Assembly (NCBI RefSeq): GCF_020151015.1
Contig: NZ_CP083746.1
Location: 5,163,382-5,227,381 of the forward strand
Length of the DNA: 64,000 nucleotides
Direction of reading: 5' to 3'
From: Pseudomonas sp. p1(2021b)
Lineage (GTDB): Bacteria > Pseudomonadota > Gammaproteobacteria > Pseudomonadales > Pseudomonadaceae
Position 1 is the stretch's first letter, and each line of letters opens with the position of its first letter. Of the stretch, positions 2,200 to 35,258 are shown piece after piece. The position numbers and the translations under genes are program-made. The notes beneath the pieces are model-generated. The model was not told the DNA's origin. It worked only from the letters and a program-made list of their open reading frames with translations, and made no database searches.

Positions 2200-2816
2200 G
2201 CATTGGCGTGAGCAGGGTATCGTTACTCCCGCCATGCTGCTTCAGATGAGACTGGCCCAAAGCAGCGCTGCCTGTGTGCTGTTCTTAAACTAGCAAAAGC
2301 GGCTAACGACAAGATGATTGTGAAATTACAATTTGGACATGTAATAGATTGTAAAGTAATTATTCTTGCCCAATTAAGATGAAAAGCCATGCATGCTGGC
2401 CGGTTTAAGCCCGTTATCAAAGGGGCGAACGATCGGTGGCTTGCTACCACTCGGAGCTTGAGCTTGTAGGATTGAACGCCATAAATGCTGAGCAGCTTGG
2501 CAGAAACGCCACCCCTCTCGGCCGAATCCTCCTGTCAGTCCTGAGGACTGATAACCGCTGCAAGCCACAGAATCCGCTAAGCTCAGTAGGGAAAGCCGTC
2601 ATGACTGTCAGCAATCTTGCGGCTACATTACAAATTTGTAGGATTTCGCCGCGGCCAGCGTCTTCGCGTTAAGATTCAAGCGTCCTCAGGTGACCCCGGC
2701 GTATGGACAGAGGTAGCGACTACCAGATGTCATGCACTCAGCCGAACCTTCAAACTGCCTGCAACCACAGTCTTGGCGGATTAGGCCAATTCCTTCCTCA
2801 CACCTTGAGATAAGTT
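2200..2816. other. Gene-free stretch with putative metal-regulator boxes
   Basis: No protein gene could be supported on either strand. The stretch contains one half-conserved box at 2325-2340 (ATTACAATTTGGACAT, followed by GTAAT) and a better one at 2627-2642. It is AT-rich around 2310-2380, unlike the flanking coding DNA, and probably holds the promoters of the leftward DUF2790 gene and of czcR. Confidence 0.5.
2627..2642. promoter_or_regulatory. Putative CzcR/CopR-type box upstream of czcR
   Basis: ATTACAAATTTGTAGG fits the ATTAC-N6-GTAAT pattern shared by many promoters of the island. It lies 175 bp before the czcR start, suggesting autoregulation. Confidence 0.5.
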
Positions 2817-3491
2817 ATGCGCGTTCTAGTTGTGGAAGACGAAATTAAAACTGCCGAATATCTTCAGCAGGGCCTATCCGAAAGCGGGTATGTCGTAGAT
2901 ATCGTGCACAATGGTGTTGACGCCCTGCACTTGTTCAATACTAACGTCTATTCGTTGGTTCTGCTGGACGTAAACCTTCCTGGCATCGACGGTTGGGACC
3001 TTTTGGAAACCATCAGGAAAACCAGCCGGGTCCGCATCATCATGCTGACCGCTCGTGGTCGCATCAACGACAAGCTCAAAGGCTTGGATGGCGGAGCCGA
3101 CGATTACCTTGTCAAACCCTTCGAATTCCCGGAGCTGCTCGCTCGAATCCGTTCGCTGCAGCGGCGTGGTGATGAATTAGTCGAGAAGAGTTCGCTGAAA
3201 ATTGCCGACTTGGAACTCGACTCAGTGCGCCATCGGGTTTTCCGCGCTGGCACACGCATCGATCTCACCACAAAGGAATTTACGCTCCTGCACCTGCTTA
3301 TGAGCAGGACGGGCGAAGCGCTGACTCGTTCTCAGATCATTTCGTTGGTCTGGGACATGAATTTTGACTGCGATACCAACGTCATCGATGTCGCTATCCG
3401 GCGCCTTCGCTCAAAGATCGATGACCCGTTTGAAACCAAGCTCATTCACACGCTTCGTGGCGTAGGGTACGTTTTTGAGGAACGCGCATGA
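2817..3491 (+). CDS. czcR: CzcR-type heavy-metal response regulator
   Basis: This 224-residue OmpR/PhoB-class regulator has a receiver domain (MRVLVVEDE start, phospho-acceptor Asp in LVLLDVNLPG, conserved Lys in [10 protein letters not shown]). A C-terminal winged helix follows, ending in LIHTLRGVGYVFEE. It is closest in character to CzcR, which activates zinc/cadmium/cobalt efflux. The stop codon overlaps the start of czcS, giving a translationally coupled pair. A second czcR-like gene lies at 17895-18569 and a CopR-type paralogue at 28467-29144. Confidence 0.88.
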   Translation: MRVLVVEDEIKTAEYLQQGLSESGYVVDIVHNGVDALHLFNTNVYSLVLLDVNLPGIDGWDLLETIRKTSRVRIIMLTARGRINDKLKGLDGGADDYLVKPFEFPELLARIRSLQRRGDELVEKSSLKIADLELDSVRHRVFRAGTRIDLTTKEFTLLHLLMSRTGEALTRSQIISLVWDMNFDCDTNVIDVAIRRLRSKIDDPFETKLIHTLRGVGYVFEERA

Positions 3492-4906
3492 GGCCATTCA
3501 GCCTGGCTGCAAAGCTGGGATTAAAGGTGGGGTTGATGAGCGCAGCGTTGCTGCTTCTGTTCGCCACCTTCGGGTATCTGATGGTGGGTCAGGCGCTAGA
3601 GCGAAATGCCCGCAGTGACCTGGAAGTGAAGATGGCGGGCATGGCTCACAACCTGTCCATGATTTCCGACATCTCAGGAGTCAACGCAGACGCACATCAG
3701 CTTGTGGATCTGGTGATGGGCCACAACAACCTGTACGTCAGCATTTTCGAGTCGGCGCAGAGTGAAACGCCCCTGCTCTCGATTGGCTCGAAGCAGGTCA
3801 ACGTGGAGGTGCACAAGTTTCAACCATCCGCACAGCCGAAGGAACATGAGTGGCGCGACACCCAGGACCGCCCCTTGCTGACAGCTTCTCGCACCATGAA
3901 TTTGGGCGACGGAACCGAAGTCAGCGTGTACATGACTATGGACCAGTCGTCCAATGAAGCGCTGCTTGATGCATTGCTCACCTGGGCCCTGATGATTTCC
4001 CCGCTCATCATCGCGCTGATCCTCGCAATCGGCTGGTGGACCGTACGCAGAGGTCTGCTGCCTCTGACCAAGTTCCTGAAAGTCGCCTCGAAGATCTCCA
4101 CCGAGAGTCTTGACCATCGTCTGCCGACTAATGGAATGCCAGCAGAACTCAAAGAGCTCGCCGACGGTATCAACATCATGCTGGCTCGCCTGGATGACGG
4201 GGTTCAGCAGCTCTCGCAGTTTTCTGACGATCTTGCTCACGAACTGCGAGCGCCGCTATCCAACCTGATGGGTAAAGCCCAAGTTGCACTGACCAGAGAG
4301 CGATCCCTTCCCGAGTACAGGGAAGTGCTGGAGTCGTGCACAGAAGAGCTGGACCGCATGAGCCGCATGGTTTCCGACATGCTGTTCCTCGCTCAGGTCA
4401 GTCATCCGGCATCCATGGTGGAGTTCGAACCTGTGTCCCTGGTCGATGAAGTTCAGCGGGTGTGTGATCTCTTCAGCATTTCGGCAGAGGATGGCGAGAT
4501 CCAGCTGCAGATCTCTGGCAGTGATGACGTGGTGCGCGGTAACCGCCTGATGATTCAACGAGCCGTCTCGAACCTGGTGTCAAATGCGATTCGCTACTGC
4601 CCTCGCGGTCGCACGGTCTACGTGAAAGTGCAACGCGGTGGTAGCGGCACGACCTTGAGCGTCGGCAACCCGGGCCGCGGGATCGCCAAGGAACACCATG
4701 CGCATTTGTTTGAACGGTTCTACCGCGTAGATAAGAGCCGAGCACGAAGCGAAGGGGGGACCGGTCTTGGCCTTGCCATCGTGCAGTCGATCATGAGCCT
4801 GCATCAAGGCTCGGCGAGCGTGGAAGTGACCGAGGAAAATTTCACCTGGTTCCACCTTCACTTTCCCGAAGCCCAGCTAAAGCAGTCGGCAAAGACCGCT
4901 GCTTGA
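3488..4906 (+). CDS. czcS: CzcS-type heavy-metal sensor histidine kinase
   Basis: This 472-residue inner-membrane kinase has a first membrane helix near residues 12-32 and a periplasmic sensor region of about 130 residues. The second helix, near residues 165-185, is followed by a HAMP linker and a phosphoacceptor motif DDLAHELRAPLSN. The ATPase domain has an N-box (RAVSNLVSNAIRYCP) and a GGTGLGLAI glycine box. It would sense periplasmic Zn/Cd/Co and phosphorylate CzcR. It overlaps czcR by 4 bp and is followed by a strong terminator. The exact metal cannot be read from sequence. Confidence 0.88.
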   Translation: MRPFSLAAKLGLKVGLMSAALLLLFATFGYLMVGQALERNARSDLEVKMAGMAHNLSMISDISGVNADAHQLVDLVMGHNNLYVSIFESAQSETPLLSIGSKQVNVEVHKFQPSAQPKEHEWRDTQDRPLLTASRTMNLGDGTEVSVYMTMDQSSNEALLDALLTWALMISPLIIALILAIGWWTVRRGLLPLTKFLKVASKISTESLDHRLPTNGMPAELKELADGINIMLARLDDGVQQLSQFSDDLAHELRAPLSNLMGKAQVALTRERSLPEYREVLESCTEELDRMSRMVSDMLFLAQVSHPASMVEFEPVSLVDEVQRVCDLFSISAEDGEIQLQISGSDDVVRGNRLMIQRAVSNLVSNAIRYCPRGRTVYVKVQRGGSGTTLSVGNPGRGIAKEHHAHLFERFYRVDKSRARSEGGTGLGLAIVQSIMSLHQGSASVEVTEENFTWFHLHFPEAQLKQSAKTAA

Positions 4907-4920
4907 AGCGCGCCCACTTG

Positions 4921-4948
4921 AAAAGGCCCGTCAATCGACGGGCCTTTT
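4921..4948 (+). terminator. Rho-independent terminator after czcRS
   Basis: A perfect 12-bp stem, AAAAGGCCCGTC / GACGGGCCTTTT, encloses the loop AATC and starts 15 bp after the czcS stop codon. It also lies just downstream of the leftward interrupted gene and could serve both directions. Confidence 0.9.
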
Positions 4949-5076
4949 GTCTATGCAATGCCTCAGTGCCTAAGCACCACAGGGTCCATAGGTGACCGCA
5001 GAATTACCGACTTTATGATCTTTTGCTCTTCTGGGTTGGCGTTTCGTAAGCGAGCCGCGAACACACCTTGCGCTCG

Positions 5077-7327: not shown

Positions 7328-7341
7328 GGTGATCCTTGCGA

Positions 7342-7389: not shown

Positions 7390-8097
7390 ATGCTGGGATT
7401 CTGAAGGTGTGTTGGCTGGCCGCTTACGGCGTTTCTCCACAGGTGGGAGAAGTATTGGGCATTCACTTTTTCCTGAGCGCTCACACTGCCGGCGGCCTCA
7501 ATGAACTGCATGGTCGAGTACACACAGATCAGTGCCAGGATGAAGAATGCTGTCGCCACCACCATGACATAACGTTTGGCCAGCACCGGTGCCCGCTTTA
7601 GCTCCAGGATCGAGGCATCCGCTAATTTTGTCGCGGCAGTAAGCTCCGAAATCAGCGGTTGGATGGCGGTCTCGACTCCACGAGCGGCAGCGGAATATGC
7701 CTCTGCCGCAGCGCGGATGACGACCTCTTCGGCATTGGACCAGGCTTTCTCAGCCTTTCGTACCTCCTCCTGAATCTGCCGACTGACAAGGTCAACCTCC
7801 TCCACCAGCTCGTTCGACTTTTCCAGAACAGCGTTGCAGGCCCTGGTCTGGGAGGCCAGCTCATCGAGCTGAACAGTGAGTTTTTCAGTGCTTCGGCGGA
7901 AGTCACCGATGGCAACTGACCAAGGCTCTATGTCATTCATGGCTATCTCCTAGAGCGGCCGGTGACGGCGCACGGTTTTATTTTGTTAGATATCAAAAAT
8001 GTAATTTACGGAACAGTTTGAAGTCAGCCTCGACACAAGCGAGATAGACATGATCCTTCCAGATTTGCAGATTGGGCGCATCCGGCCAGCCGCCTAA

Positions 8098-8113
8098 ATT
8101 ACGGAATTGTAAT
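8098..8113. promoter_or_regulatory. Putative CzcR/CopR-type box upstream of a PtrA-like gene
   Basis: ATTACGGAATTGTAAT is a near-perfect instance of ATTAC-N6-GTAAT. It ends 93 bp before the start of the small secreted protein at 8207 and is followed directly by TTGACT, a possible -35 box. Confidence 0.6.
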
Positions 8114-8206: not shown

Positions 8207-8428
8207 ATGAAATTTGTCAAATCTATCGCTATTGGCAGCCTGCTGCTTGGTCTCGTGGGTACCGCTTACGCTGAAGGTGGTTACGAACGAGCGAAACAGT
8301 TCCAGGAAAACTTCCGAAATGAACAGGCTCGCTTATGGAGCGACGATTCTTCGGACCAGAACAAACAACAAGTCGCTCAAGAGCAAAAGAAAGAAAGCAA
8401 GGATGGTAAGGAACAAGCCGATAACTAA
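8207..8428 (+). CDS. Small secreted PtrA-like protein
   Basis: This 73-residue protein has a signal peptide ending at AYA. The mature part begins EGGYERAKQFQENFRNEQ and ends in a highly charged Lys/Gln/Glu tail. The 'EGG..R' start of the mature chain resembles the N-terminal region of PtrA, a copper-induced small periplasmic protein of P. aeruginosa, and the protein at 29310-29516. The biochemical role is not known. The start is supported by genomic context (box at 8098, terminator at 8477) rather than by a strong ribosome binding site. Confidence 0.65.
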   Translation: MKFVKSIAIGSLLLGLVGTAYAEGGYERAKQFQENFRNEQARLWSDDSSDQNKQQVAQEQKKESKDGKEQADN

Positions 8429-9368: not shown

Positions 9369-9692
9369 CTACTTGTTGTTGATGCATTGCGAGTACATGG
9401 AGTAGCGAACCGTCTTAAGCGTACCCTGAGAGTCCTCGAAGGTCATCAATCGCGGGTAAACTTGGCAGGTACGCGGGTCTTGGGACTGACGCACGAATTT
9501 CGCAACATCGATCTTCATGCCGTAATTGTAGTCCTGGATCTCCGGCATCGGTTTGCCATTTCTCTCGGCATAGTTCGCTACAGCAGTCTGATGCTCCTTG
9601 ATGTATTGCAGCTGCTTGCTTTCAGAGTAAGTATAAGCCTGCGAAGCCATCGAGAACATAACAAGTGCAGCAGCAACAATTAGCTTTTTCAT
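9369..9692 (-). CDS. DUF2790 family small secreted protein
   Basis: This 107-residue protein has a clear signal peptide (MKKLIVAAALVMFSMASQA) followed by the DUF2790 core: KPMPEIQDYNYGMKIDVAKF, a central Cys, MTFEDSQGTLKTVRYSMYSQ and a C-terminal Cys. The layout matches the genes at 1791-2117 and 34844-35176, including the conserved 'PMPE..DY.YGM..DV' block. It lies downstream of a putative metal-regulator box (9766-9781) and next to czcCBA, which suggests metal induction. The activity is unknown. Confidence 0.82.
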   Translation of the reverse strand: MKKLIVAAALVMFSMASQAYTYSESKQLQYIKEHQTAVANYAERNGKPMPEIQDYNYGMKIDVAKFVRQSQDPRTCQVYPRLMTFEDSQGTLKTVRYSMYSQCINNK

Positions 9693-9765: not shown

Positions 9766-9781
9766 CTTACAATTTTGAAAG
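9766..9781. promoter_or_regulatory. Putative metal-regulator box upstream of DUF2790 gene
   Basis: CTTACAATTTTGAAAG (minus strand CTTTCAAAATTGTAAG) keeps one clear half of the ATTAC-N6-GTAAT pattern. It lies 74 bp before the start codon at 9692. Confidence 0.4.
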
Positions 9782-9851: not shown

Positions 9852-13019
<3,168 letters not shown>

Positions 13020-13037
13020 TCATCCTGTCAGTTCGCA

Positions 13038-14318
13038 TCAGTGACTGTGCTCGGCAGAGGCTTTGCCGAGCTCAGACTTGAGTGTGAAGCTGCCATTGGT
13101 AGCCACTTGAGCGCCCGCTTCGATGCCGTCCGTGATTTCCACGTACCCACTGTCACGGCGGCCCAGCTTTACTGGGCGGGTGTCGAAGCCCTCGGCGGTG
13201 CGTACGAAGACCGATGGTTTGTCCTCAACGGTCTGCACGGCGTGTTCCGGGACAGCCACCGCCACGCGATCAGTCTGGGACGTGACTGCGATGTTCACGA
13301 AAAGACCAGGACGCCAGGCCCCGTTGGGATTGGTCAACGTAACGCGGACGGTCGCTGCTCGGTTTTGCTCGCCCAACAGGCTGCCGACATAACCCACCTT
13401 GCCCTCGACCTCCACGTTCATGTCAGGTGAGGAAACCTTCACGGCGCGGCCGGTAGTGACCTTGGCCAAATCGGTAGGCGGTACAGCGAAAGTGGCCCAA
13501 ACTTGGTTAAGGTCGGACAGAATAAAGGCGTTAGTCGCCTCGCTGACGACTTCCCCGACGGTCAAGTGTTTCTCCACCACTACGGCGTCAAAGGGAGCCC
13601 TGAGTTCGTAACGGTTACCGCCTACCGAATTGACCGAGGCACCGATCGCGCTGACTTTTTGCTTGGCGTTGGCCAGAGAGATTTCGGCTTCCTGCAGCGC
13701 CTGGCGAGCCTGGAGGTAGTCCTGCTCCGCAGAAATCTTGTCCTGCCAGAGCTGCTTCTCTCGGCTAAAAGTCACGCGCGCAAGTTCGACACGACGCTGA
13801 GCGGCTTGTTGCTCGCTGCGCAGGTCAGAGATCTGCTGGCTGGCAATCACCGCAAGGACTTGACCCTTCTTGACGGACTCACCCAAATTCGCCTGGACTG
13901 TTTCGACAACGCCTGGAACGCGAGGAACAACGTGCGCAGTGCGGTCCTCGTCAAAACGAATCTCACCCGGGAAGCTCACGACGGTTCCCAAATCACGAGG
14001 CGCTGCCGATTCCAGAGTCACGCCAGCTGCTTTGATCTGTTCAGCACTAAGGGTTAGCTTACCTTCTTCCTCACCGCCCTCTTCACTGTGGCCCTCCTCG
14101 CCATGACCTTCTTCACCGTGCCCATCTTCACTATGCTCCGCTTCACTGTTCTCTTTGTTAGCTGATCCGGCCTTCTTGTCATGGCCATGACCATCGTCAG
14201 CACCATGTTCTGCGTTAGTCGCCGCTTGTTGATCGGAACTGCTGTTCCAGGCGAGGCTGCCAAATCCAAGGATTGCCACAGCGGCTACCGCGAGGGCGAT
14301 CTTGCGTTTGTTTTCCAT
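13038..14318 (-). CDS. czcB: CzcB membrane-fusion (periplasmic adaptor) protein
   Basis: This 426-residue HlyD-family adaptor joins CzcA to the outer-membrane channel CzcC. It has one N-terminal anchor or signal helix (KIALAVAAVAILGFGSLAW). A low-complexity His/Glu/Asp/Gly-rich stretch, about residues 35-85, probably binds zinc. The rest is the lipoyl / alpha-hairpin / beta-barrel body (VVPRVPGVVETVQANLGESV, then a coiled-coil hairpin rich in Gln and Ala). The C-terminus again ends in His (SAEHSH). Middle gene of the operon. Confidence 0.93.
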   Translation of the reverse strand: MENKRKIALAVAAVAILGFGSLAWNSSSDQQAATNAEHGADDGHGHDKKAGSANKENSEAEHSEDGHGEEGHGEEGHSEEGGEEEGKLTLSAEQIKAAGVTLESAAPRDLGTVVSFPGEIRFDEDRTAHVVPRVPGVVETVQANLGESVKKGQVLAVIASQQISDLRSEQQAAQRRVELARVTFSREKQLWQDKISAEQDYLQARQALQEAEISLANAKQKVSAIGASVNSVGGNRYELRAPFDAVVVEKHLTVGEVVSEATNAFILSDLNQVWATFAVPPTDLAKVTTGRAVKVSSPDMNVEVEGKVGYVGSLLGEQNRAATVRVTLTNPNGAWRPGLFVNIAVTSQTDRVAVAVPEHAVQTVEDKPSVFVRTAEGFDTRPVKLGRRDSGYVEITDGIEAGAQVATNGSFTLKSELGKASAEHSH

Positions 14319-14387
14319 TGCTACTCCTGCTGATCGTAGGCACCGGCAGGTTTAAACGCCGAGTGCCGAGAAAAATGTATGCCCCGT

Positions 14388-15680
14388 TCAGCGTGCGCCG
14401 GCGGTCGAGCCTACTTCGCCATAAACCCTTTCTACTTGCGCACGCGCATTGGTCGCCGCTGCCAGCGAGTCGAGATACTGGCCACGAGCAAGGATCAAGG
14501 TGCGCTGGGCGTCCAGTACTTCGATAAAGCCGAATTTCCCCATCTCGAATCCGCGGGTTGCGGTATCCACGGCCTGCTGGGCTGAGGGCAGAATGGTCTT
14601 GTCGTAGGACTCAACTTCTTGCATGGCGGTGGACCACTGGTTCAGCGCGGTTTGGGTTTGGGCGCGCAATCTCAACTCGACAGCGTTACGCAGGTCGCGG
14701 GCCTGATCGGCACGTCGAGAAGCGGAAAGAATGTTGCCTTGGTTACGATCAAACAGCGGCAAAGGCATGGACAGACCAACGACATTGACTCGCTCGCGCA
14801 CCGAGCGGTCGTACTGGCTACCCACGCTTACCGTGAGGTTTGGAATACGCTGAGCTTTTTCTGCGCCAAGCGAGGCATCGCTCTTATCAATCTCCACCAC
14901 TGCCTGCCGCATTTCCGGAGTCTGATCGAGCTTTGCCAGCAACTCTTCAGTGCGCGGCGGCAAGCCAGGAGACAAGGTTGGTGATTCAAGGCGATCGAAT
15001 ATGGTCACAGAACTCCCCGTGACTTGGGCGAGTTGCTGGTAAGCATTCGCTTTTTCCGTTTCGGCGCGACGGACCTGCAACCGGGCTTCAGCCAGTTGAA
15101 CCTGGGCGCGGGTAGCCTCCACAGGTGAAGATTTACCTGCGCGAACTCGACCATCGACAATGCGAAGGCCGCGCTCAGTAAGTTCAAGGGATTGTTTAGC
15201 GAGGTCGAGTCCGGTTTGGGCTCGTAATGCAGCGTAAAACGCCTGCACGACGTCTGCACGCAGACCATTCACGCGTCGGTCCAGTTCCAGTTGTGCAACA
15301 CTCTGGCCGTATGTGGCGACATCTACGCGGGCTCCCCGCTTACCACCGAGCTCCAAGGTCTGACTTAGCGTAACGGTCGTTGTGCTGGTGTTACGCCGTG
15401 TGTCCTCCATCTCATACGAGATTTCGGGGTTTGGAATCAGCCCGGCTTGCTTGCGCGCACCGTCCGCGATGCCGATTTCCTGACGTGCCGCCGCGAGGTC
15501 TGGGTTGGCATCCATTGCCGTCGACAGCGCTTGGGGCAAGCTGATGCTTTGGGCAAATGCGGTGGGTGCCAGCAACCCGGAAATCACCGCACAGAGAGCG
15601 GCAATTTTCCACGGTGAGACGTAGGTCTTGGATAAGACATTGCGGTTATACCGGAGCACTTTCTTGGTCCTCGTGCACAA
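14388..15680 (-). CDS. czcC: CzcC outer-membrane efflux channel
   Basis: This TolC/OMF-family protein of up to 430 residues has a signal sequence (KIAALCAVISGLLAPTAFAQ) and two OEP repeats rich in Ala, Gln and Leu, such as SLPQALSTAMDANPDLAAAR. It forms the outer-membrane exit duct of the Czc pump. The first ATG (15680) gives a long charged leader before the signal. A GTG at 15659, preceded by GAGG at a suitable distance, may be the true start. First gene of czcCBA, with a metal-regulator box about 100 bp upstream. Confidence 0.9.
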   Translation of the reverse strand: MCTRTKKVLRYNRNVLSKTYVSPWKIAALCAVISGLLAPTAFAQSISLPQALSTAMDANPDLAAARQEIGIADGARKQAGLIPNPEISYEMEDTRRNTSTTTVTLSQTLELGGKRGARVDVATYGQSVAQLELDRRVNGLRADVVQAFYAALRAQTGLDLAKQSLELTERGLRIVDGRVRAGKSSPVEATRAQVQLAEARLQVRRAETEKANAYQQLAQVTGSSVTIFDRLESPTLSPGLPPRTEELLAKLDQTPEMRQAVVEIDKSDASLGAEKAQRIPNLTVSVGSQYDRSVRERVNVVGLSMPLPLFDRNQGNILSASRRADQARDLRNAVELRLRAQTQTALNQWSTAMQEVESYDKTILPSAQQAVDTATRGFEMGKFGFIEVLDAQRTLILARGQYLDSLAAATNARAQVERVYGEVGSTAGAR

Positions 15681-15781: not shown

Positions 15782-15797
15782 ATTACAATTTCGTAAG
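15782..15797. promoter_or_regulatory. Putative CzcR box upstream of czcCBA
   Basis: ATTACAATTTCGTAAG fits ATTAC-N6-GTAAT with one mismatch and lies 102 bp before the czcC start. It shares the divergent region with the box at 15907. Confidence 0.6.
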
Positions 15798-20214: not shown

Positions 20215-20304
20215 GATCATATCTCCGGTATCGGGTCGATGAGATGCCAGTGCACCGTCTCATGACGGTATGTAGCGTTCGACCTGACGGGGGCCTGAAG
20301 ATTG

Positions 20305-23700: not shown

Positions 23701-23883
23701 AACGATCTGGGGAGCCTGGCCTGGGTAGGACGTGCGGATGATCACCTGCACGTCCGACAGGTCGGGCAAGGCGTCGATTGGTAGGCTACGCACCGAGACG
23801 AAGCCCCATGCCACCAGAAACAGCGTGGCGAGGAGCACCAGCACACGGTTGCCTACCGACCAGCGGATCAGTTTGGCAATCAT
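20725..23883 (-). CDS. cusA: CusA copper/silver RND efflux pump
   Basis: This 1052-residue HME-RND transporter has its fourth membrane helix reading [19 protein letters not shown], the Cu/Ag-type proton-relay motif. The periplasmic metal-site methionines are visible in [15 protein letters not shown] and [10 protein letters not shown], matching the three-Met site of characterised CusA. It moves Cu(I)/Ag(I) from periplasm and cytoplasm to the CusC channel. It overlaps both cusB and cusF by 4 bp. Complete and full length. Confidence 0.95.
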
Positions 23884-25343
23884 GGTTGGCCCTCCAACAC
23901 TTTGATCTGCTCAACGACCATGCCCTCGTCGCGTTCGCGTATGCCAAAGCGAATCTGCGCACCGATCTTGAGGCCATCAAGGAGAGACTGCTCAGCCACA
24001 GGGAAGGTCATGGTCATCCCTGGCATGCCCAGGGTGATGAAAGGACCGTGGGCAACGGTGAGCTGTGTGCCGTCTATCTGCACGACACGGCCATCCGCTT
24101 CATGCAGGGCTGGCCCCGCATTAGGCTGACTATCCTGCACCGTCGCCGCCTCGATGCCTTTCAAATTAGCGTCGGAGTCCAACAGGAATTGCCCGGACGC
24201 GACGATGCGCTGTCCTGCCTGAAGACCCTGCAACACCGCAACTTGGCCTTTGCTCTCCTGGCCCAACACGACTTCCACCGGCCGGAAGCGACCACCGTCT
24301 TCAGCCAGCATCACCAGGTCTCGCTTGCCGGTGCGGATGACCGCCTCGGCAGGCACCAAGAGGCTTTGCTTGGCAGACTCGCCGGGATGGAGAGCCACTT
24401 GAGCGGTCATCCCAGGACGAAGCCGCCCATCTCGGTTGGGCAACTCGATACGCAGGCGCAACGTGCGGCTCTGCAAATCGGCATCGGCCAATAGCGCAGT
24501 CAACTTGCCCGGTATGGGATCGCCTGGGAACGCTGGCAATTGCGCCTGCACAGGCTGGCCTTCGCGAAGGCCTTGAGCCTGGGCTTCCGGCACAGCCGCT
24601 TCCAGCCAGACGTTGGCCACTCCATTGATCCTTGCTAAGGTAGCGCCCGGCGTCAGCGTCATGCCGGGTCGCAGATCGAGAACCTGGATTACACCGGCAG
24701 TGGGTGCGGAGAGTGTGACCGAGAGCTGCACCTTCCCAGTGCTCGCGACCCGGTTGATCAGGTCGGCCGGCATGCCGGCGAGCACGAGCCGCTGTCGTGC
24801 CGCCGCCGTCAGCTGAGCGTCGCCAGAATGCCGCAACGCCAGGTATTCCTCCTGCAAACCAGCCCACTCCGGGGTCAGCACATCGGCTAGAGGAGCCCCT
24901 TTGGCAACGATGTCCCCCGTCGCTCGACCATAGACGCGTTCGACGTAACCGCCAGTACGGGCCTGCAACACGCTGAAGTCGCGTTCGTCGAACGTCAGAA
25001 CGCCGCTCACACTTAGGGTCCGTTCTAGCCGGCCAGCCGTCACCGTTGCCAATCGAATCCCAAGGTTTTGCTGGAGCCCAGCCGAGACCTGAACCGCAGG
25101 CTGCTCCTCGCCAGCCGTGTCATCCGAATACTTGGGCACGAGCGGCATGTCCATGAACGGCGATTTTCCGGGCGCCGGGAAGTGCTGCTGGGGATACATC
25201 GGGTCGTACCAGTACAGCGCTTTTTTTTCCTGACCTAAGGGCTGCGATGGCGAATACGCACCTCTCCCACCTAGCCAGAAGCCAGCGCCTATTCCAATAG
25301 CAAGGGCAGCAGCCACGACGAAACCAATCGACCTATTCCTCAT
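23880..25343 (-). CDS. cusB: CusB adaptor with C-terminal CusF-like domain
   Basis: This 487-residue membrane-fusion protein has an N-terminal anchor ([20 protein letters not shown]) and a heavy-metal-binding segment with three Met ([21 protein letters not shown]) like the Met site of CusB. The lipoyl / hairpin / barrel body follows. The last 75 residues add a CusF-like barrel ([20 protein letters not shown]). It keeps the His and two Met but has no Trp at the expected position. E. coli CusB lacks such a fusion, though fused forms are common in other proteobacteria. It overlaps cusC and cusA by 4 bp. Confidence 0.93.
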
Positions 25344-26590
25344 GCCCGCACCTCTCCATAAACGAAATGCAGACGCGCTGCTGTTGCCGCCAACTGTCCT
25401 TGCAGGTCCACATCCTGTAGTAGTGCCTCCACACGCTGCCGGCGTGCCGACAGCACTTCACTCAACGGCGACTTACCGGCGCGGTAATCCGCCAGAGCGA
25501 GGCGTACCCGGTCCTCGGCCAGGGGCAAAAGTGTTTCGCGACTGCGCCGCACTGCCCGTTGCAAGCGTTGGTACTCGACAAGGTCTGTTTCAAGCTGGGC
25601 TTGATGCTCGCGCAGGGCAGCGTCCTGCTCATCTTCCAATTGGCGAACTTGTGCGCGTCGTGCCGCAATCATCGGGTCTTGCCGTGAGCTGGTAAACAAT
25701 GGCAATTGGAAGCTGACTTGCAGGCTGACCATGTTGCTGAAGTCCGGACCACGGCGCTGATAATCCACTCCCCAGGACCAATCCGATTTCTTTTCCGCCT
25801 GAGCCTGGTGTACCTGGGCTTGAGCCTCGCGTGTCATGGCGTTGTAGGTATTGAGCTCCGGATGGGCATGGACGGAGTGCAAGTATTCAGCTGCGTCTAC
25901 AGGCCAGACAGGGAAGGTCGGCGCGCCTACTTCGGCGTCCTGCCCAATCCAGCGCTTCAGCGCGGCTCGCGCCTGAGCTGACTGACTCAATAGAACGTCT
26001 TTCTGCTCGTCCAACTGCGCGGCTTCTTGCTTGGGAGCCAGCGTATCGGCGCTGGAGCCTGCGCCTCCGGCCAGGCGGGCCCGCACCGTGGAAGCCAGCA
26101 GCTGGTTTTCTTTGTAGAAGGCGTCGAACTGTTCAAGCTTTCGCTGCACGGTGTACGCAGTAACCCAAGCCTGTGCGGTTGCCGCCCTAACCTTCAAGCG
26201 TTCGAAGATCGCCTCGGCATCGGCTCGCTCGACCGTGGCCTGCGCTGTCTCTATGCGAGCTTTGCGTTTGTCCCGGTTCGGTACTTCTTGGGACAGGCCA
26301 ACCACCTGCATGGTCATGAAGTCTCTGTTCATGCTCCAGCGATCGGTGCCTTCAATCGGCAGGTTTTGTACCCCGAGATTCAGGCGCGGATCGGGTAGTT
26401 CGCCCGCTGGAATGACTGCGCTGCGCGCAGCTGATGCCTGCTCCTGGCGGGCCTGTAGAGAGGGAGCGTTACGTTCAGCCAGTTGCAGCGCCTCATCCAG
26501 CGACAGCGTTGCAGCCTGTGCCGAGACAGCCGGCAGCAGTATGAACAGGACGGCCGTGGTTATCCGTCCCTGAAAACGTTGGGGAGTCAT
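25340..26590 (-). CDS. cusC: CusC outer-membrane channel of the copper pump
   Basis: This 416-residue OMF-family protein starts at 26590 (MTPQRFQGRI). It has a signal peptide ending at VSAQA and two OEP repeats (SLDEALQLAERNAPSLQARQ and a second block ending [17 protein letters not shown]). It forms the exit duct for CusAB. The longer reading from 26632 adds 14 residues before the signal and is less likely. It overlaps cusB by 4 bp. The operon probably begins further upstream with copRS. Confidence 0.9.
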   Translation of the reverse strand: MTPQRFQGRITTAVLFILLPAVSAQAATLSLDEALQLAERNAPSLQARQEQASAARSAVIPAGELPDPRLNLGVQNLPIEGTDRWSMNRDFMTMQVVGLSQEVPNRDKRKARIETAQATVERADAEAIFERLKVRAATAQAWVTAYTVQRKLEQFDAFYKENQLLASTVRARLAGGAGSSADTLAPKQEAAQLDEQKDVLLSQSAQARAALKRWIGQDAEVGAPTFPVWPVDAAEYLHSVHAHPELNTYNAMTREAQAQVHQAQAEKKSDWSWGVDYQRRGPDFSNMVSLQVSFQLPLFTSSRQDPMIAARRAQVRQLEDEQDAALREHQAQLETDLVEYQRLQRAVRRSRETLLPLAEDRVRLALADYRAGKSPLSEVLSARRQRVEALLQDVDLQGQLAATAARLHFVYGEVRA

Positions 26591-26676
26591 GAAAATGATT
26601 CCTCGAAAGATCAGCGCCCAGGCGCGTGCCATCGCCCCGCTGCTAGGCGGAACGACGGTGTGAAATTAAGAGGGAA

Positions 26677-27024
26677 TCAGACGCGGGGAGGACGCCACGG
26701 ATCGGGGGGAGAACCTGTCGCTATGCCTACAGCGTAGGTATCGGCAGGTCGTGGCTTGGCGAAAGTCAGCCCAGGCGTCAGGAAGCTAATCTGTACGGTA
26801 CTGGCAGTCCTGCACTCCTGGCCGACCTTGCAGGATTTGGCATGGTCGCCAGTCTTACCCAGGTCTTGGTCCTGGCAGCAGTCATGGTCCATGCCCGCCA
26901 TCATTTCCATGCCCATCGCCTGCATTGGGCAAGGTTCAGTCGCCGAATCGATGCCCGCCATCCCGTTAAGCGGAAGCGCCACGATTAGCATCAGGAGGGT
27001 GAGTAGTCGAATGAGCCGATTCAT
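26677..27024 (-). CDS. Small Met/Cys-rich secreted protein of copper cluster (CopL/CzcI-like)
   Basis: This 115-residue protein has a signal peptide (IRLLTLLMLIVALPLNGMAG). The middle is rich in Met, Cys, His and Asp (CPMQAMGMEMMAGMDHDCCQ, then CKVGQEC). The C-terminal tail SPPDPWRPPRV is typical of the CzcI/CopL-like small proteins that accompany Cus and Czc pumps. A role in periplasmic copper binding or in tuning induction is likely but unproven. It sits between copS and cusC, all leftward. Confidence 0.65.
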   Translation of the reverse strand: MNRLIRLLTLLMLIVALPLNGMAGIDSATEPCPMQAMGMEMMAGMDHDCCQDQDLGKTGDHAKSCKVGQECRTASTVQISFLTPGLTFAKPRPADTYAVGIATGSPPDPWRPPRV

Positions 27025-27060
27025 GATGGGCGAGTATAGGTTACCGGGATGAGTTCAGCA

Positions 27061-28470
27061 TTAAGGGGTTGGGGCTGCACTAACCAACCGCTTGGAGGCT
27101 GGGAGACTGATGAAGAATGTTGTGACACCCTCCGCTGATGTACACCAGATTCGTCCGCTATGAGCCTCGATGATAGAGCGGGTTATCGACATCCCCAGGC
27201 CTGCATTGCTTGGGCCGCCTTCGCGTCTGGCTGGATCGGCTCGATAGAATCGGTCGAAGATCTTGCCAATGTGCTGGGGATCGATGGTTACCCCGCTGTT
27301 ACGCACGGAAAGCGTCACGCTTTCAGGCGTCTGCTCGATCTGCACTGATATCTCGTTGCCTTCCGGGGTGTAGCGCAACGCGTTGGATAGAAGGTTGGAA
27401 AGCGCTCGGTCAATCATCAGGCGATCGCCACGAACCTTACCCTGCCCGTGTAGGGTCAGTTGGATGCCTTGATCCTCAGCCAGGAATTGGTAGTACTCGA
27501 ACAGCTTTGATACGAGTTCGGAGAGCTCCACATCGATCTGCTCGGGCACGATCAGACCGTTATCCGCCTTGGCCAGGAACAGCATGTCGTCGATCATGCG
27601 CGACATGCGCTTGAGGTCTTCCAGGTTCGAATAGAGGTTTTCTTCATAGGCATCCAGGTCACGCTTCTTGGTGAGCACCACTTCGGTATGGGTCAGAAGG
27701 TTGCTGACTGGCGTTCTCAATTCGTGAGCGATATCGGCAGAGAAGTTGGACAACCGAACGAATGCATCCTCCAACCGTCCCAGCATCCCGTTGAAAGACA
27801 GGATGAGCTCCTGAAGCTCTAGCGGTACGGGCTCCAGCGGAATGCGTTCGCGAAGTGATCTTGCCGACATCCCGGTGGCCACTTTGGTGATTTGCCCAAC
27901 AGGCCGAAGCCCGCTTTTGGCCACGACCCAGCCCAAGCCTGCGCTCACAATCGCGCTGATCACCAGACCAATTCCGAACCACCATTGCAGGGTGACAAAG
28001 AAATGGGCGTGAGTGGTGACATCGAGCATCAGCACGGCCGTCACCGGTTCCGGCTCGCCTGCAATGGTCAGCTGGGCGGTAATGCCGCGGAAGTTCTGCG
28101 CTTTATCCTGCCACTCCCAGACCGCACCCCGATGCGCCTGCTCGAACCGCTGAGGAATCTGGGAGGCTTTGGGGTCTGAAAACAGGACCGTTCCGTCAGC
28201 CTTGGTGATTTTCGCCGACAGATCCTGATGTGCGCCGAGCAATGCCCGCAGCTGCTGCTCCTGATCGTCGAGCCCGCCTCGCGCTGCTGAGATGGAAAGG
28301 ATATGACGCGTTGACTCCAGCTTTTCAGAAAGCGCCTGCTCATCCAGCATCCGGAAATGGTGCTGGCTGAGCCCGTAGAAAGCGACGCCGGCAACCACCA
28401 GGACAGCAGTCACCGCGAACATGAACATCAGGGTCAGCCGCTTGACGAGCGATGATTGCGGGCGCATCAC
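27061..28470 (-). CDS. copS: CopS copper sensor histidine kinase
   Basis: This 469-residue kinase has a first membrane helix near residues 14-32 and a periplasmic sensor of about 130 residues. The second helix is followed by a HAMP linker, the phosphoacceptor motif [15 protein letters not shown], an N-box ([19 protein letters not shown]) and a [10 protein letters not shown] glycine box. It pairs with CopR, whose stop codon overlaps its ATGATG start. It senses periplasmic Cu(I)/Ag(I) and controls the divergent copper operon and probably cusCBAF. Confidence 0.9.
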
Positions 28471-29144
28471 TCGGGCACATCCATCATGTAGCCCATGCCT
28501 CGGGCGGTATGGATTAGCTTTGGCGCGAAGTCGTCATCAATCTTGGCCCGCAGTCGGCGAATCGCGACCTCGATCACGTTGGTGTCACTGTCGAAATTCA
28601 TGTCCCACACCTGAGAAGCGATCAGCGATTTGGGAAGCACCTCGCCGCGTCGGCGCATGAGCAGCTCCAACAGGGAAAACTCCTTGGCAGTAAGGTCGAT
28701 CCGCTTGCCGTTTCGCGTAGCTCGACGCTTGAGCAGGTCCACCTCAAGGTCTGCCATCTTCATAGTGGTTTGAGCAGAACCACCGTTGCCTCTGCGCAGC
28801 AACGTACGAACTCGAGCCAGCAGCTCCGAGAACGCAAAGGGCTTCACCAGGTAATCATCAGCGCCCAGTTCCAAACCTTTCACGCGGTCGTCTACGCCGT
28901 CTCGGGCCGTCAAGAAAAGGACCGGCACATCCTGACCCGCCGCACGGATCTTGCGCAGGACATCCCAGCCATCGAGCCCCGGCATCATCACGTCGAGGAT
29001 CAGCAAGTCATACGCTTCGCTCTGTGCCTGTTGCAGGGCGTCAGTGCCTGTCATCACCCGGTCAACGGTGAAGCCAGCTTCTGTTAGACCTTGCTGGAGG
29101 TAGACACCGGTTTTCGGCTCATCTTCGGCCACGAGTAATTTCAT
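28467..29144 (-). CDS. copR: CopR copper response regulator
   Basis: This 225-residue OmpR/PhoB-class regulator starts [20 protein letters not shown], very close to CopR of P. aeruginosa and P. putida. The phospho-acceptor is in [14 protein letters not shown], and the DNA-binding domain includes [20 protein letters not shown]. It should bind CTGAC-N6-GTAAT boxes such as those at 29206 and 29523. First gene of a leftward run copR-copS-(26677 gene)-cusCBAF. Confidence 0.92.
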
Positions 29145-29205: not shown

Positions 29206-29221
29206 CTGACGGAAAAGTAAT
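29206..29221. promoter_or_regulatory. CopR box in the divergent copR / PtrA-like region
   Basis: CTGACGGAAAAGTAAT fits the CTGACA-N5-GTAAT pattern reported for CopR in P. aeruginosa, with one mismatch. It lies 62 bp before copR and 89 bp before the PtrA-like gene and can serve both. Confidence 0.7.
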
Positions 29222-29309: not shown

Positions 29310-29516
29310 ATGAACATGGTCAAAGCAATTGTGATGGTCGTTACCTTCGGCATGGCAGGCATTGCCCTGGCAGAGGGCGGCGCGGACCGGACCTTTGCAC
29401 GGATGGAAGCGGCTCTCCAAAGCTCCATGCAGGCCTCCCAGGTTGCGCAGGGGAAGAAAGAGCAGGCGCCATTCGCCGCCCAGTCCAGCAAGCACGCGGG
29501 CCACGAAAGCTGCTGA
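29310..29516 (+). CDS. PtrA-like small copper-inducible secreted protein
   Basis: This 68-residue protein has a signal peptide ending at ALA. The mature chain starts EGGADRTFARMEAALQSSMQ and ends with His and Cys (HAGHESC). The EGG-D-R start is shared with the proteins at 8207 and 34844 and with PtrA, a small copper-induced periplasmic protein of P. aeruginosa linked to control of type III secretion and copper tolerance. First gene of the rightward copper operon, between the two CopR boxes. Confidence 0.75.
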   Translation: MNMVKAIVMVVTFGMAGIALAEGGADRTFARMEAALQSSMQASQVAQGKKEQAPFAAQSSKHAGHESC

Positions 29517-29522: not shown

Positions 29523-29538
29523 CTTACAGAAAAGTAAT
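29523..29538 (+). promoter_or_regulatory. Second CopR box, upstream of copA
   Basis: CTTACAGAAAAGTAAT differs from the box at 29206 at only two positions and begins 7 bp after the stop codon of the PtrA-like gene. It suggests a separate CopR-controlled promoter for copA. Confidence 0.65.
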
Positions 29539-29697: not shown

Positions 29698-31707
29698 ATG
29701 CAAAGCAAAACCACGAGACGATCTTTCGTCAAAGGCCTGGCCGCTACCGGACTTCTGGGTGGGCTCGGCATGTGGCGCGCGCCGGTCTGGGCCGTGACCA
29801 GCCCTGGCCAACCGAACGTGCTCAGCGGCACGGACTTCGATCTGTATATCGGCGAACTGCCCGTCAACATCACGGGTGCAGCTCGTACGGCCATGGCCAT
29901 CAACGGCTCCGTGCCAGGGCCGATCCTGCGATGGCGCGAAGGCGACACCGTGACGCTGCGCGTACGCAACCGGCTGAAACAGGACACCTCCATTCACTGG
30001 CACGGCATCATCCTGCCCGCCAACATGGACGGTGTGCCGGGCTTGAGCTTCCACGGCATCGCTCCCGATGGCATGTACGAATACAAGTTCAAGGTCCACC
30101 AGAACGGCACTTACTGGTATCACAGCCACTCAGGCCTCCAGGAACAGTCCGGGGTCTATGGGGCGTTGGTGATCGATGCCAAGGATCCGGAGCCGTTTGT
30201 GTACGACCGTGATTACGTCGTCATGCTCAGCGATTGGACGGATGAAGACCCGGCGCGGGTGCTCTCCAAACTCAAGAAGCAATCTGACTACTACAACTTC
30301 CACAAGCGCACTGTAAGCGACTTCGTTGACGATGTGAGCGAGAAAGGCTGGTCGGCCGCTGTAGCGGATCGGAAGATGTGGGCTGAAATGAAGATGAGCC
30401 CCACCGACCTCGCTGACGTGAGCGGGTATACCTACACCTACCTCATGAACGGCCAGGCTCCGAACGGCAACTGGACGGGACTCTTCAAGCCCGGCGAGAA
30501 GATCCGCCTGCGCTTTATCAACGGCTCGGCCATGACCTATTTCGATGTCCGGATTCCTGGGCTCAAGATGACGGTTGTGGCTGCTGACGGCCAGTACGTC
30601 AAACCCGTATCGGTCGATGAGTTCCGGATCGCCGTTGCCGAAACCTACGATGTCATCGTCGAACCTGAAAACGAGCAGGCCTATACGATCTTCGCGCAAT
30701 CCATGGACCGTACCGGGTACTCCCGAGGCACCCTGGCAGTTCGTGAAGACTTGCAAGCGCCCGTACCGGAGGTAGATCCACGCCCGATCATCGCCATGAG
30801 CGATATGGGCATGGACCACGGCAGCATGGGCGGAATGGATCACGGCGGCATGGCTGGCATGGACCAAGGGAACATGGCCGGCATGGATCACAGCAAGATG
30901 GCTGGGATGGACCATGGCAGCATGGCCGGCATGGACCACAGCAAGATGGCTGGAATGGATCACGGCAACATGGCCGGCATGGACCACAGCAAGATGGCTG
31001 GAATGGACCATGGCAACATGGCCGGCATGGACCACAGCAAGATGGCTGGAATGGACCATGGCAGCACGGCCGGCATGGACCACAGCAAGATGGCTGGAAT
31101 GGACCACGGCAACATGGCCGGCATGGATCACAGCAAGATGGCTGGGATGGGTCATGAGGGCATGGCCGGCATGAGCGGTGCAATGCAGAGCCATCCGACT
31201 TCCGAGACCAACAACCCGTTGGTCGATATGCAGACCATGTCGCCGACCCCGAAGCTGAACGATCCGGGAATTGGCCTGCGCAACAACGGGCGCCGAGTGC
31301 TGACCTACGCCGATTTGCGGAGCACCTTCATCGATCCCGATGGTCGAGAGCCTGGACGCACAATCGAACTGCACCTTACCGGCCAAATGGAGAAGTTCGC
31401 ATGGTCGTTCGACGGTATCAAATTCTCCGACGCTGAACCGCTGCGGTTGAAATATGGCGAGCGTCTTCGCATCACCTTGGTCAACGACACCATGATGACT
31501 CACCCCATCCATCTCCACGGTATGTGGAGTGATCTGGAGGACGAGAACGGCAACTTCATGGTTCGCAAGCACACCATCGACATGCCACCTGGCTCAAAAC
31601 GAAGCTATCGCGTCACCGCAGATGCCTTGGGACGTTGGGCCTATCACTGTCACCTACTGTTCCACATGGAAATGGGCATGTTCCGAGAAGTCCGTGTGGA
31701 CGAATGA
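29698..31707 (+). CDS. copA: CopA periplasmic multicopper oxidase
   Basis: This 669-residue protein is exported folded by the Tat system ([10 protein letters not shown] signal). Copper-site motifs of multicopper oxidases are intact: [40 protein letters not shown] and [13 protein letters not shown]. Residues about 372-497 are a tandem Met/His/Asp repeat ([16 protein letters not shown] and variants) that binds extra copper. Such PcoA/CopA enzymes oxidise Cu(I) to the less toxic Cu(II) and sequester it. It is followed at 14 bp by the Met-rich 115-residue protein and by copB. Confidence 0.96.
30811..31190 (+). repeat. 24-bp tandem repeat in copA encoding Met/His-rich units
   Basis: About 15 imperfect 24-bp units, mostly arranged as alternating 48-bp pairs encoding GMDHSKMA / GMDHGNMA. 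Near-identical units make the copy number prone to change by slippage. Confidence 0.9.
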
Positions 31708-34452: not shown

Positions 34453-34517
34453 CATAAATCCCCGCTAGAAAGTTTCATCAGCTCAACACGACGACACAGA
34501 GGGCCTGCAAAGCGTAG

Positions 34518-34706
34518 CTAATCAGATTCACGGCGCTCGCGGACTGGCTTGAGTACGATATCGCCGTTGATAAGCTCGATGGAGAGTCTGTCGCCCGTCG
34601 TGACCCCGAGCTCGCTCAGAATGTCGTCGGGTAGTTCCACAATCACATCGCCGGAGCCGTCGCCGGGATCAAGGCACTTGACCGTGGTGCGCGCTGATTG
34701 AGTCAT
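34518..34706 (-). CDS. AbrB/MazE-type antitoxin-like DNA-binding protein
   Basis: This 62-residue SpoVT-AbrB swapped-hairpin protein has the typical core VIVELPDDILSELGVTTGDR followed by LSIELINGDIVLKPV. Such proteins are antitoxins or small regulators. The usual toxin partner next to such a gene was not found: the neighbours are the cop operon (convergent) and a DUF2790 gene. It may act alone as a regulator, or its toxin has been lost. Confidence 0.8.
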   Translation of the reverse strand: MTQSARTTVKCLDPGDGSGDVIVELPDDILSELGVTTGDRLSIELINGDIVLKPVRERRESD

Positions 34707-34843
34707 TGGGCTGTCCTGCCTGAGCTACCAATTCTCATCGTACTCCACCAGTCATGAAAGCCGGTAACCAGGCGATCAATCGCCGGAATTGACGCTTCAA
34801 CCCGGCTTTTTATCAGCGTAAGTCCTGCCCGCTCGATCAGTGC

Positions 34844-35176
34844 TCAGTTCTGGCCCCGGCAACCGATACCAGCGGTCCGGTACTCAAGGATTTTCAGGTC
34901 TCCATTGGAATCCTCGTAGTTCATCTGTGCTGGCATCACGTCACAGCTCGCCTTGGTCGATGTCATGCTGATTACTCTCGCCACGTCGAGCCGCATCCCG
35001 TAGCGATAATGGATCACCTCCGGTGGCTTCATATCATTGACGGCCGCATAAGCTCGCATAGCTTGCTCATTGGCCTGAATCATCTTCCCGTATAGACGGT
35101 CGGATCCTCCTTCGGCGAGCGCGGTTGAGGAGGCCACTATGGCCAGGATGGCCGCGATGCTTTTGATGACTTTCAT
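34844..35176 (-). CDS. DUF2790 protein with PtrA-like N-terminus
   Basis: This 110-residue protein starts at 35176 (MKVIKSIAAILAI), supported by GGAG 8 bp upstream; a GTG at 35185 is less likely. The signal peptide ends at ALA. The mature chain starts EGGSDRLYGKMIQANEQAMR, like the PtrA-like proteins. It continues into the DUF2790 core (MKPPEVIHYRYGMRLDVARV, a Cys, MNYEDSNGDLKILEYR, and a terminal Cys). It combines features of both small-protein families. A regulator box lies 67 bp upstream. Confidence 0.8.
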   Translation of the reverse strand: MKVIKSIAAILAIVASSTALAEGGSDRLYGKMIQANEQAMRAYAAVNDMKPPEVIHYRYGMRLDVARVISMTSTKASCDVMPAQMNYEDSNGDLKILEYRTAGIGCRGQN

Positions 35177-35242
35177 TTCAATCACTCCAATAGACGTGAC
35201 TGAAGATTAGGATTTTGTCGCTGTCAATTGAGTGATACGGGG

Positions 35243-35258
35243 ATTACAAGGTTGTAAG
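35243..35258. promoter_or_regulatory. Putative metal-regulator box upstream of third DUF2790 gene
   Basis: ATTACAAGGTTGTAAG fits ATTAC-N6-GTAAT with one mismatch, 67 bp before the start codon at 35176. Confidence 0.6.

Follow-up and report, generated by a model that had tools for sequence, protein, structure and literature searches.

Bases 5163382-5227381 of contig 1 (NZ_CP083746.1) in the 5.57-Mb genome of Pseudomonas sp. p1(2021b), a stretch of 64,000 nucleotides hereafter called the window (1.15% of the genome), hold a zinc/copper island in which most metal promoters carry a 16-bp box of the form ATTAC-N6-GTAAT. These boxes are more than chance, they fall into zinc-type and copper-type variants (here termed dialects), and at most promoters a second, weaker box follows at a fixed distance. 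Judged from sequence, they probably constitute two related switches, one in a zinc and one in a copper dialect, usually built on a tandem operator and serving the OmpR-family regulators of the island.

Boxes in the zinc/copper island

The original prediction had placed such boxes at 11 positions, about 60-210 bp before genes. All 11 carry the sequence it gave, and the gaps between box and start codon are 61-207 bp. The arms are perfect at 8098; there is one mismatch at 15782, 15907, 17783, 20305, 29523 and 35243, two at 2325, 2627 and 29206, and three at 9766, which is why a scan at two mismatches misses the last site. In the proposed comparison with shuffled sequence, the window contains 19 sites with at most two mismatches versus 8.8 +/- 2.8 by chance, and none of 100 shuffles reached 19. 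With at most one mismatch, the whole genome has 28 sites and 26 matches to the backwards pattern, and the window holds 9 of the former and 1 of the latter; beyond the island, the motif therefore does not rise above background. Its density in the window is ~41-fold above that outside (binomial P ~2e-11; P ~3e-8 with the seven window sites that remain when 9217 and 42632 are left out).

Two 16-bp matrices were trained on other genomes only, which avoids circularity. The zinc matrix was derived from 54 czcC promoters (37 distinct stretches, from 72 loci) and the copper matrix from 24 copA promoters (18 distinct, from 28 loci); training loci had at most 90% protein identity to the window genes, and the others were dropped for identity, a missing site or a sequence edge. 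At a score of at least 13, these matrices recover 10 window sites, compared with a mean of 0.37 and a maximum of 3 over 60 shuffles. All 10 are intergenic according to the gene list of this analysis, in a window that is ~85% coding, so the motif is not as frequent inside genes or in shuffled sequence as in these promoters. Nine of the ten had been predicted and one, at 7990, is added. The boxes at 9766 and 35243, scoring 9.9 each, are recovered only at a threshold of 9, where the window has 15 sites (13 intergenic) and the shuffles 1.73.

The island's relatives, found by a czcC search and a genus search, are Pseudomonas. Of 80 named Pseudomonas loci, 75 have a box with at most one mismatch within 450 bp upstream of czcC (for L059, the upstream sequence is limited to 128 bp); the reversed motif occurs there in 0/80 loci at one mismatch and 7/80 at two. 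Before copA, the box is found in 30/30 loci at up to two mismatches and in 16/30 at up to one, versus 1/30 and 0/30 for the reversed motif. The box at 15782 and those of the 75 czcC loci have the form of the P. putida-type CzcR operator, an inverted repeat with an A/T-rich spacer before czcC, while 29206 and 29523 represent the CTGACA-N5-GTAAT-like cop box of CopR before copR and copA. Of the 250 matrix sites in 170 loci (169 from other genomes, plus the copA locus of the window), 237 fall no more than 330 bp upstream of a gene with a homologue in the island; as the loci were chosen for holding such genes, this figure measures placement rather than genome-wide precision. The window's own copA locus (L132) is counted in this set, in the copA-box set, and in the sets of 12 promoter groups and 208 hits described below.

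Chance AT-rich matching would fit the situation outside the window, where the strict motif occurs 19 times, no more than the backwards control (25). It may apply to 7990, 9217 and 42632, but for the main sites it is refuted by their enrichment, intergenic position and conservation. As an account of the boxes we consider it scarcely credible; the main boxes in the island are real.

Zinc and copper dialects

According to the original prediction, the boxes define one overlapping CzcR/CopR regulon. Operators of the CzcR/CopR type they are by their sequence; it is the word "one" that finds no support as stated, since the matrices split the sites into zinc and copper. The zinc consensus, from czcC, is gAT(a)AC-ggAaTT-GTAAT, with zinc promoters approximating AT(A/T/G)AC-nnAnTT-GTAAT. 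The copper consensus, from copA, is CT(g/t)AC-AGAAAT-GTAAT, with copper promoters approximating CT(T/G)AC-aGAAA(T/A)-GTAAT. With the foreign matrices, the sites at 2325, 2627, 7990, 8098, 15782, 15907 and 17783 score higher as zinc, and those at 20305 (copper score 31.7), 29206 and 29523 (28.8) higher as copper. Two boxes, 9766 and 35243, are nearly neutral, with a zinc/copper difference of only ~2 bits (for 35243, 9.9 and 7.5, respectively).

In other genomes, the dialect tracks the neighbouring metal module: OprD-family genes follow it, and DUF2790 genes mostly do. Beside copper genes, 5/5 distinct OprD sites are copper-type, and beside czc genes 6/6 are zinc-type; PtrA-like genes beside copA have copper-type sites in 6/6 cases, and DUF2790 genes near copper modules at 7 of 10 distinct sites. 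With the training genes excluded, 8/8 zinc entries (7 distinct sites) score above 0 and 19/22 copper sites below 0 (Fisher 3e-5). These sites are incompletely independent: L187 is counted once as an OprD and once as a DUF2790 site, and several of the zinc OprD sites lie in the same intergenic DNA as training promoters. Apart from czcC and copA, the Fisher set leaves out loci labelled "none", the second czcR (czcR2), because it shares its site with czcC in divergent loci, and copR, because it shares its site with PtrA-like gene 2 (ptrA2). Seven loci in the comparison were labelled copper by hand, copA being listed on the same contig. Among training genes, spacer position 5 is A in 5/5 distinct copA sites and T in 17/17 distinct czcC sites; the dialects as such are separated by the whole matrix and by no single base.

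If all regulators read all boxes equally and the spacer differences were neutral, the island would form one undivided CzcR/CopR regulon. The shared arms speak for this, as do 15782 and 20305, which score well with both matrices, and the palindrome that CzcR, CopR and CusR share in P. paraeruginosa (PMC11195947, in the passages compared). All three island regulators possess a receiver domain (PF00072) and a Trans_reg_C domain (PF00486), and the recognition helices of CzcR and CopR are nearly identical (DTNV-x-V-A/S-I-RRLR), which fits the shared ATTAC/GTAAT arms. Their DNA-binding domains differ at several positions between the CzcR and CopR groups; we claim no specificity residue, because there are only 8 CopR rows, all at least 93% alike, the window's included. 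An undivided regulon is nevertheless unlikely, given that the split follows the metal neighbourhood even within the OprD family and that spacer position 5 distinguishes copA from czcC across all distinct sites.

Ancestry alone is another explanation, in which the letters were kept from one ancestral zinc and one ancestral copper promoter and were not selected for regulator choice. The training promoters are indeed orthologous, gene families may have been copied together with their promoters, and zinc-side OprD sites have intergenic DNA in common with czcC training sites. Against this, each dialect is common to different gene families and one family shows both, and in copper DUF2790 sites spacer positions 1-4 drift while position 5 stays A at 7/10 distinct sites. 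We therefore judge ancestry alone to be improbable and retain the reading of two metal-biased switches.

A probable tandem operator

Counting box 1 as positions 1-16, a TCAc or TCAg follows at 23-27 and a GTTAT, GTTAG, GATAG or GACAG at 34-38. Together they form a second, weaker box (~TCAC-N6-GTTAT or GACAG), shifted exactly 22 bp downstream and present in promoters of unrelated genes; because of this shift, half-sites start at 1, 12, 23 and 34. A TANNNT-like sequence stands at 49-55 in many promoters and gives a candidate -10 element ~11 bp beyond the second box.

When 12 promoter groups were aligned on the box, positions 24-26, 34-38, 50-51 and 55 were conserved. Conservation reaches 1.46 bits (position 26), compared with a 99th percentile of 0.93 in a shifted-register null, and the mean of the top eight positions is 1.05 versus 0.49, a value reached in 0/2000 null draws; the stretch used for the null was a little shorter than that of the observed alignment, and position 26 falls inside both. 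copA was left out because its layout differs. Of the 12 groups, five consist of one window promoter each and a sixth of one promoter from another part of the genome, and since these were chosen and oriented after the layout had been seen, the conservation is partly circular. A held-out test was made with a 58-bp matrix from foreign promoters of four gene families at no more than 85% identity. Its total (array) and downstream scores for the individual boxes are as follows.

2325..2340, minus strand: zinc-type box toward DUF2790 gene 1, with a weak second box at 2303-2318; array score 18.7, downstream score 4.5
2627..2642, minus strand: zinc-type box upstream of czcR, its strong direction pointing away from czcR; array score 26.8, downstream score 10.2 on the minus and -4.8 on the plus strand
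7990..8005, plus strand: extra weak zinc-type site, not previously listed; zinc score 16.7, downstream score -3.3
8098..8113, plus strand: zinc-type box for PtrA-like gene 1, with second box at 8120-8135 and candidate -10 at 8147-8152; array score 40.4
9766..9781, minus strand: weak box for DUF2790 gene 2, with second box at 9744-9759; array score 32.1, to which the flank contributes over half
15782..15797, minus strand: zinc-type box for czcC by matrices and array score (53.0), with second box at 15760-15775 and candidate -10 at 15743-15748
15907..15922, plus strand: zinc-type box for the OprD-family porin by matrices and array score (39.5), with second box at 15929-15944
17783..17798, either strand: zinc-type box between a 49-amino-acid open reading frame (ORF; minus) and the second czcR (plus); array score 28.7 on the minus and 18.2 on the plus strand
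20305..20320, minus strand: copper-type box for the DUF326 gene, no tandem second box
29206..29221, plus strand: copper-type box flanked by copR (minus) and PtrA-like gene 2 (plus), with second box at 29228-29243; array score 39.8
29523..29538, plus strand: copper-type box for copA, no tandem second box; array score 20.8
35243..35258, minus strand: box for DUF2790 gene 3, dialect ambiguous, with second box at 35221-35236; array score 19.3

At 8 of the 10 boxes that were predicted and carry an array score here, the part downstream of the box exceeds the window's 99.9th percentile (3.9); at 35243 it scores 2.8, between the 99th and 99.9th percentiles. The matrix picks the expected strand at seven of eight single-direction boxes, namely those of czcC, the OprD gene, PtrA-like gene 1, copA and the three DUF2790 genes. 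In 1.12 Mb of sampled loci, 184 of 208 array hits are found upstream of an island-type gene and share its strand; among the other 24, 10 distinct ones were inspected by eye, and at least four precede a CzcC-like and one a PtrA-like frame.

Outside the window, the test set comprised all 16 places in the genome matching the two dialect patterns, with neighbours checked for 8/16 and tblastn run for 16/16. Three pass the 58-bp matrix, lying before a core PtrA-like gene/czcRS, a second czcC and a core copA (5.8, 14.0 and 19.4); the other 13 fail, the best at -3.1. A zinc-type box, ATAACAAAAATGTAAT, stands close upstream of an aldolase-like frame (assigned by eye) at G000:C1:1868217-1868232, remote from metal genes, and its flank does not fit the operator model. 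By their flank scores, 9217 and 42632 (one mismatch each) were likewise rejected as operators; both are probably chance matches, and 42632 falls inside a tnsA-like gene. Cross-family conservation and the held-out matrix both recover extra half-sites in 11-bp phase, as known for AgrR, but not at 29523 or 20305.

The downstream element could instead be a core-promoter feature, an unusual -35 or another factor's site. It does lie at the place of the -35, and CzcR3 of P. putida KT2440, which footprints on aTTAC-N6-GTAAT upstream of two czcC genes, covers only ~25 bp at czcC1 and czcC2, so that box 2 is not visibly bound there in vitro (PMC8469834, in the passages compared). On the other side, the element keeps a distance of exactly 22 bp to box 1 and repeats its N6 spacing and nTnAn arms, and the one at 15929 was itself matched in a blind pattern scan. 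The CzcR3 footprint on czcR3 extends over 36 bp with three motifs, with no obvious regulatory effect at that site (same passages). In Cupriavidus metallidurans AgrR, a type II activator at most promoters studied, binding and activation depend in part on the inverted repeat and in part on an in-phase direct repeat (PMC7380067, likewise in part). We place the core-promoter explanation on the unlikely side and favour a second regulator box.

Other observations, together with the short czcC footprints, weigh against two metal-specific switches on a tandem operator. No second box accompanies the DUF326 site at 20305, where the 58-bp matrix gives a downstream score of -25.8 and even favours the wrong strand, nor the copA site at 29523, where the flank is different and the downstream score -1.9; only 2 of the 208 array hits in the sampled loci precede copA. 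Three of the 10 copper-side DUF2790 sites are slightly zinc-ward, including the sequence of the island's gene 3, and spacer position 5 is T in only 3/6 distinct zinc-side OprD sites and A in 1/6 copper-side PtrA-like sites. The dialect cannot be absolute, because published CusR, CopR and CzcR act on one palindrome (PMC11195947), and raw counts overstate independence, because orthologous promoters share descent. Moreover, in the sources as far as compared, CzcR of P. aeruginosa acts as a repressor of certain targets too, including oprD.

Proposed mechanism

We infer the pairing of regulators with boxes, cooperativity and activation as follows. The boxes would be operators for CzcR, the kinase-less second CzcR-like protein and CopR, with ATTAC and GTAAT arms recognisable by all three, while spacer and left arm would bias a promoter toward CzcR or CopR, allowing leakage where scores overlap. 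At most promoters, box 1 may be the upstream, high-affinity half of a tandem operator whose four nTnAn half-sites, 11 bp apart, would lie on one helix face. Once phosphorylated, the regulator would bind box 1 first and spread from there to box 2, which covers the -35 place so that the downstream dimer would sit there. It would then recruit polymerase in the manner of a class II activator, and the tandem site would lend cooperativity to this activation. Acquired copA promoters carry a copper box with a different downstream layout. In PhoB pho-box promoters, 11-bp phased repeats end ~10 bp before the -10 and replace the -35; those repeats are head-to-tail, whereas the island has a palindromic pair.

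Direction and targets of the boxes

The predicted target list holds insofar as the boxes mark most metal promoters; by direction, however, 17783 and 29206 fit other genes better than those assigned, and 2627 points away from czcR. The box at 17783 had been given to the second czcR, and the minus strand toward the 49-amino-acid ORF scores higher; the ORF side of such sites has the higher total in 19/20 loci tested. Taken by itself, the ORF-side flank ranges from -7.5 to 7.2 in 30 loci, so this fit is moderate. The site at 29206, assigned to copR, has its strong direction toward PtrA-like gene 2; an offset reading at 29228 toward copR, shifted by 22 bp with the strong box proximal, also scores (15.6). 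The box at 2627 does lie upstream of czcR, as stated, but the minus strand is favoured.

The 49-amino-acid ORF, hidden by ORF lists of at least 70 amino acids, matches 30 loci (17 distinct in DNA, 15 full-length). In 14 comparisons with the window copy, its ratio of nonsynonymous to synonymous differences (pN/pS) is 0.17-0.35 for all but one; the exception (L054) shows three replacement and no silent changes and lacks an ATG. The ORF is conserved and under protein-level constraint. A protein search returned six entries, whose visible source names are "hypothetical" or incomplete.

No box was found in 26601-27080 before cusC, nor a CueR-like dyad there by a simple pattern. cusC may be transcribed by read-through from copRS, which precedes it on that strand, presumably within a single transcription unit.

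Gene content of the island

1791..2117, minus strand: DUF2790 gene 1 (Pfam PF10976)
2817..3491, plus strand: czcR, OmpR-family response regulator (Pfam)
3488..4906, plus strand: czcS, sensor kinase (Pfam)
8207..8428, plus strand: PtrA-like gene 1, 73 amino acids (name carried over from the original prediction; Pfam scan gave no match)
9369..9692, minus strand: DUF2790 gene 2 (Pfam)
9852..15668, minus strand: czcA, czcB, czcC efflux operon (ORFs; czcC by its relatives, czcA and czcB named by gene order; czcC start codon uncertain)
16061..17404, plus strand: OprD-family porin (Pfam)
17539..17688, minus strand: 49-amino-acid ORF with a conserved HWCSHE(F/L)HR motif (sequence comparison)
17898..18569, plus strand: second CzcR-like response regulator, no adjoining kinase (Pfam and alignment)
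19888..20220, minus strand: DUF326 Cys-rich gene (Pfam; copper-storage reading carried over likewise)
20375..29144, minus strand: cusF, cusA, cusB, cusC, an ORF with no Pfam match, copS, copR (cusA and cusB named by order and sequence)
29310..29516, plus strand: PtrA-like gene 2, 68 amino acids (Pfam scan gave no match)
29698..31707, plus strand: copA multicopper oxidase (Pfam)
34844..35185, minus strand: DUF2790 gene 3 (Pfam; clade tree)

The CopA-like multicopper oxidase (29698-31707) contains a long array of Met/His-rich repeats of the MDHGxMAGMDH type. IS66-family transposase genes (5077-6844) are inserted between czcS and PtrA-like gene 1, and bases 1-1226 resemble mercury-resistance genes by reading frames and sequence, with the strict box motif absent there.

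Genes for TniQ-like, TnsD-like, TniB/TnsC-like and TnsA-like proteins (35964-44972) adjoin a gene with GlmS-type domains (43137-44972), and a gene with a sub-threshold Mu-transposase-C match occupies the TnsB position nearby. Since these Tn7-like transposition genes adjoin the GlmS-type gene, the whole zinc/copper island looks like the cargo of a Tn7-like transposon at a glmS attachment site. Window bases 1700-20300 are matched over 87% of their length at 96% identity by a Pseudomonas sp. XWY-1 plasmid, and over 75-78% at ~85% identity by five others, from P. putida (two), P. kurunegalensis, P. luteola and Pseudomonas sp. HD6515.

DUF2790 genes

The genome has seven DUF2790 genes, three of them in the island. 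Upstream of these three, the best zinc-matrix scores are 15.2, 9.9 and 9.9 (array scores as listed above); upstream of the other four, no matrix score exceeds 0. Among 60 genus loci hand-chosen from the matches listed, a box with at most one mismatch is present in 21/28 with a metal-type neighbour versus 1/32 without, and the reversed motif in none of either; the neighbour criterion is loose, as it includes any OprD-like protein of >45% identity. In a tree of 87 distinct DUF2790 sequences (from 100), the 20 boxed ones fall inside one 26-row clade (support 98/89), and the box label changes 5 times, compared with 18.3 in shuffles. Window genes 1 and 2, counted as unboxed because their boxes have two and three mismatches, form long branches beside this clade. 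In the sampled genomes, the boxes mark one DUF2790 clade, not the family; the whole family as a CzcR/CopR regulon was rejected, most sampled members having no box.

A fold search with DUF2790 gene 3 against solved structures gave a single match with E <0.001, to 4f98 (PA3229) of the same family, and provided no clue to function. Several DUF2790 members respond to lanthanides, and CzcR is unmentioned in the passages concerned (PMC11520305).

Closest described systems

The box is already known, and the extended operator has a precedent in AgrR. The comparisons below refer to parts of the cited papers. The CzcR3 operator of P. putida KT2440 has the same arms and A/T-rich spacer 5' of two czcC genes, with related motifs before czcR3; the second box, the -10 spacing and the copper dialect do not occur in the parts compared (PMC8469834). 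On an integrative and conjugative element (ICE) of P. paraeruginosa, CopR, CusR and CzcR cross-regulate through their common palindrome, mostly keep their own regulons and have few shared targets. As in the island, acquired metal genes are wired there to several related regulators via one box type; the ICE has one shared site, whereas the island has about a dozen in two dialects (PMC11195947).

The cop box or CopR site (CTGACA-N5-GTAAT, cited in PMC11195947) is resembled by the copper-type boxes 29206 and 29523 and by the copA sites; in the island type, DUF326, copper-side OprD and DUF2790 genes have it upstream as well, usually within the tandem operator. With the AgrR box (ATKACA-N4-TGTMAT), the predicted operator shares a 16-bp inverted repeat, an in-phase extra half-site, the proposed type II activation and a stronger promoter-proximal half (PMC7380067). 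Genus and regulator are different, and the island has a whole second box, a fixed 22-bp register and several gene families. P. aeruginosa CzcR motifs derived from chromatin immunoprecipitation sequencing, GAAAC-N6-GTAAT (cited in PMC10581170) and GAAABCTWHGVGYAAY (PMC13209446), have the GTAAT half and the spacing in common with the zinc dialect and differ from it in the left arm.

Possibly new are the genus-wide comparison of dialects, the fixed 22-bp register across Pseudomonas gene families and the targets predicted here in addition. The work of Garber et al. 2018 on P. stutzeri may already contain some of the dialect split.

Implications

We tentatively extend the model beyond the island. 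Across Pseudomonas, a small code in the spacer and left arm may separate the regulons of paralogous zinc and copper regulators whose recognition helices are almost the same, with four half-sites in 11-bp phase forming the tandem operator common to both. Accessory genes (OprD porins, the DUF2790 clade, PtrA-like genes and the 49-amino-acid Cys/His ORF) may have been recruited to zinc or copper by acquiring the corresponding box.

A loose list of motifs would become a promoter model for a mobile zinc/copper island, stating which box should answer to which regulator. A second binding site, perhaps overlooked in the footprints made so far, is among its predictions, and it gives one DUF2790 clade and an uncharacterised 49-amino-acid ORF a predicted regulatory context. 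The island may offer a natural case of paralogous response regulators avoiding, or allowing, cross-talk.

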